Positions 24,444 through 25,819 of a stretch of DNA of 64,000 bases are shown here, piece after piece. Made by a program: the position numbers and the translations under genes. Positions within the stretch are counted from its first letter, which is position 1. Each line of letters opens with the position of its first letter. Below the pieces are notes generated by a model that saw only the letters and a program-made list of their open reading frames with translations, had not been told where the DNA came from and searched no databases. This DNA comes from Thalassococcus sp. S3 (GTDB lineage Bacteria; Pseudomonadota; Alphaproteobacteria; Rhodobacterales; Rhodobacteraceae): the NCBI RefSeq assembly GCF_004216475.1, contig NZ_CP022303.1, positions 186,001 to 250,000 of the forward strand, written 5' to 3'.

Positions 24444-24860
24444 TCAGAGTTTCCCACGCAGGGCCTTAACTTCCCCGCGCGCCTTTTTTGCCTTGAGCCG
24501 ACGTTCCACCGATCCTTTCGTGGGCCGGGTCGGTCTGCGTTTCTTCGGTACTTCGAGCGCTTGTCTGATCAACTCCGCAAGCCGTGTTCTTGCGATTTCT
24601 CGGTTGCGGGCCTGGCTGCGTGTCTCATCGCACTGGATCACGACCGCGCCTTCTTTCGTCCAGCGCCGCCCGGCTAGACGGCGCAAACGCGTCTTCACAG
24701 GGGCTGGCAAATTCGGCGACCGCCCCGCTTCAAAGCGCAACTCGACGGCAGTCGCCACCTTGTTTACGTTCTGTCCTCCGGGACCCGAGGCGCGGATGAA
24801 GTGTTCGGTCAGCTCCCAGTCCGCGATTGTGATCGTGTCGGTGATGCGCAGCATATCCAT
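24444..24860 (-). CDS. arfB: ArfB: alternative ribosome-rescue peptidyl-tRNA hydrolase
   Basis: ArfB (YaeJ) enters the A site of ribosomes stalled on truncated mRNA and hydrolyses the peptidyl-tRNA. The GGQ motif is present (GPGGQNVNK, residues 26-34). The C-terminal lysine/arginine-rich tail that threads into the empty mRNA channel is intact (VPKKRRPTRPTKG to the end). The length of 138 residues is typical. I start at the first of two close ATGs (MDMLRITDT). An intrinsic terminator ends only 9 bases upstream of the start, so expression must come by reading through that terminator or from an unseen promoter. Confidence 0.92.
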   Translation of the reverse strand: MDMLRITDTITIADWELTEHFIRASGPGGQNVNKVATAVELRFEAGRSPNLPAPVKTRLRRLAGRRWTKEGAVVIQCDETRSQARNREIARTRLAELIRQALEVPKKRRPTRPTKGSVERRLKAKKARGEVKALRGKL

Positions 24861-24869
24861 AGTCCAGCG

Positions 24870-24898
24870 AAAAAGGGCCGCCCCCATGGGACGGCCCC
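24870..24898 (-). terminator. Terminator immediately upstream of arfB (attenuator)
   Basis: On the minus strand GGGGCCG (24898-24892) pairs with CGGCCC (24880-24875), with inner CCC/GGG pairs, followed by TTTTT (24874-24870). The arfB ATG is 9 bases further. Its 5' arm GGGGCCG can instead pair perfectly with CGGCCCC at 24924-24918, which would prevent the terminator. Confidence 0.8.
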
Positions 24899-24973
24899 TT
24901 CGAAAGTTTCAGGAGGTGGGGCCGGTTAGATCCATCGACCCACTTGGGCGGCCTGCAACCGCCAAGGGCTGCC

Positions 24974-25030
24974 TCAGCAGGCGGCCTCCCAAGCTGTTCC
25001 GACACCTCTCTCCAATACCTTTCTCGACAC
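24974..25030 (-). CDS. Putative 18-residue leader peptide
   Basis: A GTG start lies 7 bases after GGAGG of an exceptionally strong Shine-Dalgarno, and the frame reads MSRKVLERGVGTAWEAAC then TGA. Its last codons form one arm of the stem described for the leader, so translation would open that stem. The peptide matches no family I know. It contains one Trp and one Cys near the end, but no run of regulatory codons. It is too short to judge by coding statistics; support comes from the ribosome site and position. Confidence 0.5.
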   Translation of the reverse strand: MSRKVLERGVGTAWEAAC

Positions 25031-25104
25031 TGGATCACCTCCTTTCGTTTTGTTGAACTCAATATCAGCCTGCCACGGTAAGGCCTATCTGACAAACAAA
25101 ATCT

Positions 25105-25734
25105 TCAGGCAAGCCGTCCGTGAGGATCAAGACGCGCAACAATGAGGCGGAAGGGGATCAGAGCGGCCAGCGCCAGCGACAGCTTTACGCCCCAATCCGC
25201 CACGGCGAGCGACACCCAAAGCGGCACGACAGGGCCAACGCCCAGAAGCGGCAGCGCCTCGTTGGCCCATGCCACATCCGTGCCAGGATCGACCCAAGCC
25301 AGCGAGGCCGAAAACGCGATAGAGAAGAAAAGGGCGGTATCGACCGAAGAGCCGACGAGGGTGGAGGCCAGCGGCGCCTTCCACCAAACGCCCCGGCGCA
25401 GGGCGGAAAAGATGCCCACATCCAGCAATTGGGCGGTCAGGAACGCGATGCCGGAGCCGATGGCGATGCGGAACGTGACCAGAGGCCCGAATTCTCCCAT
25501 GATCTGCGTGCCGACGAGAGAGCAGAACACACCCACGAGGAAGCCCACGAAGACCACGGTGCGCGCGGGACCCGCGCCATAGATGCGGTTCATCAGATCG
25601 GTGACAAGGAAAGCCAGCGGATAGGTGAAGGCGCCCCAGGTCAGCCATTGGCCAAAGAGGAACTGAACGAGGATGTTCGAGGCGACGACGATAGCCGCCA
25701 TGGCAATAATGCCGGGAAGATGTGCACGTGTCAT
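25105..25734 (-). CDS. VUT/YhhQ-family transporter (queuosine precursor)
   Basis: The 209-residue membrane protein has about six hydrophobic segments. The conserved stretches NILVQFLFGQ, TYPLAFLVTDLMNRIYG and LVGSSVDTALFF mark the VUT (YhhQ, former DUF165) family. E. coli YhhQ imports the queuosine precursors preQ0/preQ1. I start at MTRAHLPGII; the 28 codons upstream are not family-like. The stop is 59 bases upstream of the arfB leader, and the gene follows the phytase-like lipoprotein gene on the same strand, so a long operon is possible. Confidence 0.85.
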   Translation of the reverse strand: MTRAHLPGIIAMAAIVVASNILVQFLFGQWLTWGAFTYPLAFLVTDLMNRIYGAGPARTVVFVGFLVGVFCSLVGTQIMGEFGPLVTFRIAIGSGIAFLTAQLLDVGIFSALRRGVWWKAPLASTLVGSSVDTALFFSIAFSASLAWVDPGTDVAWANEALPLLGVGPVVPLWVSLAVADWGVKLSLALAALIPFRLIVARLDPHGRLA

Positions 25735-25819
25735 GGTTAATGCCCGTTTTATCAAGGTTGCGGCGACTTGGTCCGGTAAGACAGCAGGCGGGGTAATGGG
25801 TTGCGACAATCTGCGCAAG

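Follow-up and report, generated by a model that had tools for sequence, protein, structure and literature searches.

A CC2171-like RNA with an 18-codon reading frame lies upstream of arfB in Thalassococcus sp. S3 and is retained in relatives with and without arfB nearby

Introduction

The closest described relative of the RNA analysed here is CC2171 (Rfam RF01867), a Caulobacter small RNA (sRNA) whose original description is reportedly that of Landt et al. 2008. The Rfam output treats CC2171 as an sRNA and mentions no open reading frame (ORF). The RNA in question lies on the minus strand of a 64,000-nucleotide (nt) stretch of Thalassococcus sp. S3, a member of the Rhodobacteraceae (contig NZ_CP022303.1, positions 186,001 to 250,000; hereafter the window), between a Vut_1 transporter gene and the ribosome-rescue gene arfB. 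It shares with CC2171 an alignment over model positions 1-159, the 5' block AACAA..GAAAGGAGGTGATCCAGTGTC, the place of a long-range helix (P1) and a terminator. It differs in a score that falls short of the curated cut-off and in the sequence of P1; in addition, the Rhodobacteraceae-type members carry an internal CCUCC and usually precede arfB.

Other systems share single traits with this RNA. The CcsR or cuckoo sRNAs, which are not known to be coding, resemble it in an anti-Shine-Dalgarno (anti-SD) copy followed by a terminator, and the CCUCCUCCC motif appears in the Rfam title of one of them (RF02791, CcsR1); however, the window RNA scores 10.7 bits against a cut-off of 65.3, which is no significant match. 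Leader-peptide attenuators of the trpL and ermC type also carry a short ORF whose translation would change pairing, but here neither a downstream regulated gene outside the bacterial family nor an antiterminator is conserved. The dual-function SgrS/SgrT RNAs are likewise small RNAs with a short ORF; here, by contrast, the ORF stands at the 5' end, the ribosome site lies within the conserved fold and the peptide is weakly conserved. Finally, Escherichia coli arfA has a terminator beside a rescue-factor gene. That gene is controlled by its own terminator or by cleavage, with the signal inside the coding region, whereas the terminator described here ends a separate RNA.

Two earlier predicted Caulobacter non-coding RNAs, unnamed in the passages of the paper drawn on here, have been found to be translated (Schrader et al. 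2014, PMC4117421). According to the same passages, most Caulobacter non-coding RNAs are not conserved beyond the Caulobacteraceae and few occur in other alphaproteobacteria; the name CC2171 does not occur in the main text (PMC4117421).

A first-pass annotation of the window had described the interval before arfB as a ribosome-sensing attenuator, in which ribosome occupancy of an unusually strong site would free a strand to form an antiterminator; as a fallback it offered an independent small RNA that ends at a terminator of its own. Every string that it named was found, with letters and coordinates correct, on the minus strand. The analysis below points away from attenuation as a conserved design and towards a stand-alone RNA of about 190 nt whose short ORF is probably read by ribosomes.

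Results

By sequence comparison, the leader RNA is a divergent, full-length homologue of CC2171. The whole window has no match in Rfam at curated thresholds. In a permissive search the leader matches RF01867 over its full length with 40.7 bits (expect value, E, 2.5e-7); because this lies below the curated gathering cut-off of 75 bits, we do not count the RNA as a formal member of RF01867. The first-pass annotation had listed a match of the leader to a named RNA family among the results that would speak against it; such a match is seen in part, at a score below the cut-off of that family. The same model searched against 289 genomes of the class Alphaproteobacteria matches 69 at E<=0.01 and exceeds 75 bits in 9.

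Homology is also recovered in the opposite direction. A model (R2) built solely from 29 aligned RF01867-type relatives, all outside the family of the window, gives the window RNA a score of 65.1 bits (E 4.2e-13). The 29 come from the 30 loci fetched after the RF01867 class search; the thirtieth (L113) falls outside the coordinate range, its contig being short, and has the Shine-Dalgarno (SD) sequence, GTG and a 25-codon frame. Across the class, R2 matches 74 of 279 genomes at E<=0.001 and, by our count, 49 at E<=1e-6, counts that include the genomes of its own training sequences. A search of 249 genomes across the phylum yields just weak matches outside the class, at E 2.7e-5 or worse.

Within the Rhodobacteraceae, a model (R1) of 40 members picked from 117 for diversity (alignment A2) matches 336 of 388 genomes at E<=1e-10 by our count, and 370 at E<=0.01, far more than chance would give. 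The former is taken as the safer frequency because, in the genome of the window itself, weak matches with E values such as 3e-4 to 6e-3 resemble bare terminators, and weak matches in the RF01867, R1, R2 and phylum searches may be of this kind throughout. An earlier search, with 367 of 394 at E<=0.1, was set aside as a frequency, as its weak matches may be antisense 16S. Further copies of the RNA in the window's own genome were considered and rejected: the 7 other weak matches look like terminators of other genes.

The features of the locus are collected in Table 1. The first of these to be considered is the ribosome site. The 16S gene of the window's genome was not found in its assembly. Other Rhodobacteraceae, among them records of Rhodobacter CZR27, Gemmobacter and Alloyangia, share one 16S 3' end, CTGGATCACCTCCTTTCT, so the 17-base complementarity claimed at first pass very probably holds. 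The 13-base core of the site has one other copy in the 5.0 Mb genome, in a context that is not 16S and looks coding. All 29 aligned relatives outside the family have GAAAGGAGGTG unchanged; they were themselves placed by the string AGGAGGTG.

Table 1. Features of the RNA and its neighbours. Coordinates are positions in the window.
Feature	Coordinates	Strand	Evidence or remark
RNA, stand-alone, CC2171-like, about 190 nt	24870..25060	-	homology; model matches
Extended SD GAAAGGAGGTGATCCAG	25030..25046	-	17 bases complementary to 16S 3' end
ORF, GTG 25030-25028 to TGA 24976-24974, 18 codons, VSRKVLERGVGTAWEAAC	24974..25030	-	start/stop conservation; frame test
H1, start-codon hairpin TCCAGTGTC/GGTATTGGA	25011..25034	-	93.4% of cells paired (8 pairs); changes mostly one-sided
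P0 5' strand GGAGGTG	25036..25042	-	98.8% of cells paired with P0 3' strand
P0 3' strand CACCTCC (anti-SD copy)	24912..24918	-	98.8% of cells paired with P0 5' strand
P1 5' strand GAAAG, ORF codons 3-5	25019..25023	-	top covarying pair
P1 3' strand CTTTC, pre-terminator linker	24902..24906	-	covariation
P2 GTCGG with CCGGC	24999..25003 with 24925-24921	-	90.5% of cells paired
P3 CTTGGG/CCCAAG, encloses H4	24943..24993	-	5/6 pairs changed on both sides
H4 GCTGAGG-CAGC-CCTTGGC, stop codon inside	24961..24978	-	4/7 pairs with both-sided changes; 76.4% of cells paired
Anti-SD copy CACCTCCT	24918-24911	-	
CGGCCCC (proposed antiterminator strand)	24924-24918	-	
GGGGCCG	24898-24892	-	
CGGCCC	24880-24875	-	
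T-tract	24874-24870	-	
Intrinsic terminator GGGCCGTCCC-ATG-GGGGCGGCCC-TTTTT	24870..24897	-	94.4% of cells paired; 8/10 pairs changed on both sides
-35-like TTGTCA (relatives TTTGACA)	25090..25095	-	conserved in upstream regions of relatives
-10-like CAGGCT (relatives CAnnCT after TGTG), 17-base spacer	25067..25072	-	conservation
Vut_1 transporter gene (Pfam)	25108-25818, stop 25107-25105	-	upstream of the RNA
arfB, RF-1 domain (Pfam), ATG at 24860	24447..24860	-	downstream neighbour, outside the RNA

The 18-codon GTG frame behind this site, also proposed at first pass, proves to be a real short ORF. Of 144 loci taken, 133 family loci carry the RNA by blastn (the 11 without a match are L046, L057, L058, L061, L066, L068, L070, L071, L073, L076 and L077). 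A start codon is in place in all 133, as GTG in 126, TTG in 3 and ATG in 4, and the frame has exactly 18 codons in 123, the remainder having 12 to 24. These loci are kin, and the counts are not independent events. The 123 frames close with TAG (54), TGA (47) or TAA (22) and never with TGG, which is one step from two of these. Among 8 loci in which the SD spacing is 1-2 bases shorter, 7 start with TTG or ATG. Outside the family, all 29 aligned relatives have a start codon (ATG 16, GTG 13) and close the frame after 18-30 codons; in the two remaining frames the first stop falls at scattered places from 0 to 45 or is absent. Nineteen of 20 further loci show the start codon. Such strict conservation of start and stop leads us to infer that the ORF is translated.

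The peptide behaves differently from its boundaries. Across the 123 ORFs of 18 codons, the entropies of codon positions 1, 2 and 3 are 0.84, 0.85 and 0.83 bits; residues 13-18 are nearly free, and S-R and L-E-x-x-V-G-T are conserved. Since start and stop are kept while the codon positions vary equally, translation appears to be under selection and the peptide weakly so.

A separate alphaproteobacterial locus has this ribosome site in another setting. On the minus strand of L257 (445-256), the same extended SD (GAAAGGAGGTGATCC) and a GTG open a longer frame, followed by a terminator. The frame begins in a signal-peptide-like manner (MKTLAVASVLMFGSAISGAALAEC...), and a gene for a small secreted protein may share this ribosome site.

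The fold of the RNA was approached by comparison. The consensus that RNAalifold drew from 46 full sequences, the first of a set of 47, was poor and partial; pairings were therefore proposed by eye together with a covariation screen and then counted. The screen, like the antiterminator count below, used the 117 of the 133 loci that are complete and have the usual spacing and 18 codons. When all column pairs are ranked, the first is codon 4 with the pre-terminator linker, with z 21.8 and 98% canonical pairs against 76% expected. This pair belongs to P1, which joins the start of the ORF to the linker. Within the family P1 has 19 both-sided changes compared with 7.4 in shuffled alignments (0 of 500 as high), and when it is slid the pairing falls from 78% to 32-57%. 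For the whole structure there are 154 both-sided changes against 46.6 shuffled (0 of 500). Outside the family P1 occupies the same place, and P1 and the terminator together show 61 both-sided changes against 17.4 (0 of 500). When P1 strands are swapped among these outside relatives, the native combination is favoured, at -9.25 compared with -6.49 kcal/mol.

The SD region can be paired from within the RNA. Complementarity between the SD and the RNA's own sequence beats shuffles on average, with a mean z of -1.2 for the 29 outside relatives and -1.7 for the 117 family members. The pairing of the SD with the anti-SD copy (P0), part of the earlier proposal, is available almost throughout the family (Table 1), in which the CCUCC strand is near-invariant. 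The proposed extension of this pairing, TTTCG with the CGAAA before the SD, was rejected: covariation places TTTCG against the GAAAG inside the ORF.

The comparison shows that P1, P3, H4, the terminator, the start codon and the stop codon are conserved, and it supports P0 and, largely, H1 and P2. P0 and P1 cross, and would be either alternatives or parts of a pseudoknot. The loop of H1 holds most of the P1 strand, so both P0 and P1 might form.

The ends of the RNA are marked in the same way. In most of the family members listed, TTTGACA or something close to it is followed by about 17 bases of spacer, by TGTGnCAnnCT and then by AACAA and the SD; in the window, transcription would start near 25060. 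At the other end, the terminator recognised at first pass ahead of arfB has ample compensatory change (Table 1). A predicted promoter and a terminator of its own, judged from their conservation, would delimit a stand-alone RNA gene, which favours the fallback proposal of an independent small RNA.

In four relatives the spacer of the predicted promoter (L011, L039, L079, L085; a near form in L007) contains TTATCCACA, which, by chance or otherwise, resembles a DnaA box.

The relation of this RNA to arfB was then assessed. Just 3 of 117 relatives can form the complete antiterminator, CGGCCCC with GGGGCCG. The main reasons are an A in place of G at one position in many of them and a last position that rarely pairs; the longest possible pairing is barely above that of shuffled sequences (4.9 vs 4.5). 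Attenuation of arfB by a conserved antiterminator is rejected on this count. The window RNA itself does form the antiterminator in a computed fold that keeps the entire ORF unpaired, which makes a local effect on arfB conceivable there; imposing this pairing on the free RNA has a cost of about 18 kcal/mol.

The RNA is also kept where arfB is not nearby. Among 90 family loci fetched via the RNA, arfB was not found within the 0.5-1.7 kb examined downstream in 11. For 10 of the 11 (L180 was left out), one downstream open frame per locus was compared with Pfam. The families are unrelated: LysR, RimK, EamA, flavodoxin-like (twice), DUF2799 and an outer-membrane-protein barrel, and 3 frames have no Pfam family. 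In other alphaproteobacterial families, none of the 30 RF01867-type loci has arfB in the stretch examined, about 1.5 kb on each side for most. Conversely, R1 was applied to 31 arfB loci lacking a BLAST match (11 family-like, and 20 of 26 from other groups) and found the RNA only in L076; L068 and L076 offer little sequence before arfB.

Against the general pattern in the family, four Paracoccus arfB loci (L066, L070, L071, L073) have no RNA near arfB; the rest of those genomes was not searched.

Upstream of arfB, a TAnnnT box stands 5-8 bases before the start codon in 29 of 110 relatives, compared with a mean of 3.6 and a maximum of 10 in shuffled sequences. In those relatives, this suggests a leaderless arfB messenger that begins just beyond the RNA's terminator. 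The box is absent before arfB in the window itself (24854-24880). Taken together, the incomplete antiterminator, the promoter-like element of the RNA and the loci without arfB nearby indicate that the leader is probably not an arfB attenuator by conserved design, contrary to the first-pass annotation.

Discussion

Taken in aggregate, these data favour a stand-alone, CC2171-like RNA that is gated by ribosomes at its 18-codon ORF; the act of translation rather than the peptide would matter, and the output would be exerted in trans. We regard this reading as fairly probable. The RNA would be transcribed from its own predicted promoter and end at its own terminator. In the folded state, the SD would be held on the internal anti-SD copy and the GTG in a hairpin, while the region of the hairpin loop would pair with the pre-terminator linker. 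A 30S subunit could outcompete the internal pairing through its long 16S match. A ribosome travelling along the 18 codons would next disrupt the 5' half of the fold, which would free the anti-SD strand. As the peptide is weakly constrained, it is probably the act of translation that counts; if so, the output is probably made by the RNA in trans. One possibility would be action through the released CCUCC strand.

A more far-reaching form of this proposal is that the RNA serves across the alphaproteobacteria as a ribosome-gated, two-state trans regulator, opened only when 30S subunits are ample, with a transit of fixed length setting the state. This is conceivable, though we consider it doubtful. 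If it is true, the RNA would be dedicated to sensing 30S subunits that are free or mature.

Several observations weigh against the stand-alone, ribosome-gated reading. With respect to the fold, P0 cannot covary because the SD is invariant, and several high-ranking column pairs are non-canonical, including number two (29-140, 26% canonical), a sign that common descent plays a part in the ranking. Within the family, exchanging P1 strands yields no signal (native -6.51, swapped -6.71 kcal/mol, rank 0.52); support for P1 there is column-wise. Because the structure that was counted had been traced on the sequence of the window, it has an advantage over its slid versions. The match of the SD to its own RNA reaches z below -1.5 in just 12 of 29 outside relatives, compared with 71 of 117 family members, and the CCUCC copy is not general in the alignment of relatives outside the family. 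With respect to the ends of the RNA and its translation, a strict consensus scan of the locus detected neither a sigma-70 promoter nor a terminator, so the predicted promoter rests on conservation and the terminator on conservation together with covariation; GGAGG is entirely missing from one of the 20 further loci (L251). Synonymous changes make up a larger share in the reading frame (0.40) than in the other two frames (0.27, 0.32), and because of this modest excess some selection on the peptide is possible. Finally, 79 of the 90 family loci fetched via the RNA have a same-strand arfB downstream, which fits a link to arfB. The likelihoods given here for the different readings do not total one, because the rivals overlap with the stand-alone, ribosome-gated reading.

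The strongest rival is a plain microprotein gene, in which the 18-residue peptide does the work and the fold serves translational control only. The strict start and stop, the near-constant length, the frame-specific synonymous excess and the conserved residues are all as such a gene would have them. However, the three codon positions are equally variable, the last six residues are nearly free, and several of the conserved residues fall in paired segments, H1 and P2. The peptides of other families look unrelated by eye (VSHCH..., MSSDF...), and the family alignment shows that parts of the RNA beyond the ORF are conserved too. On balance a gene of this kind is unlikely.

A second rival takes the RNA for a trans-acting, cuckoo-type anti-SD sRNA, like CcsR and similar RNAs, whose CCUCC binds messenger RNAs and whose ORF is incidental. 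The constancy of CCUCC within the family is consistent with this, as are sub-threshold Rfam likenesses (to CcsR1, as given above, and to suhB/mmgR at 15.1 bits), which probably reflect the terminator and CCUCC only. Against it, start and stop are kept too strictly for an incidental ORF, and outside the family the alignment has no general CCUCC motif. We hold this alternative to be clearly improbable.

Attenuation of arfB in response to ribosomes, the original proposal, is less probable again. An occupied ORF would let CGGCCCC pair with GGGGCCG, the terminator would fail and arfB would be transcribed. The frequent position of arfB behind the RNA, its start only 9 bases past the T-tract in the window, and the antiterminator in the ORF-open computed fold all fit such a design. 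It is countered by the rarity of the complete pairing, its energetic cost on the free RNA, retention of the RNA at loci with no arfB in the stretch examined, and the TAnnnT box that would serve a leaderless arfB in some relatives. A 30S decoy or trap, which would retain ribosomes by its long match to the 16S tail and be translated only incidentally, would account for the invariance of GAAAGGAGGTG and for a computed 16S duplex of -35.2 kcal/mol against -14.0 for the internal anti-SD, but is very improbable, as a single-copy RNA would matter only at very high abundance and a trap needs no stop codon kept at one place.

The novelty of reading this RNA as ORF-bearing is provisional. If the stand-alone, ribosome-gated reading holds, this RNA, which a very large bacterial family keeps in the majority of its genomes and which has relatives elsewhere in the class, would be a clean candidate for linking ribosome supply to RNA control, and CC2171, catalogued as an sRNA family, may really be a translated RNA.

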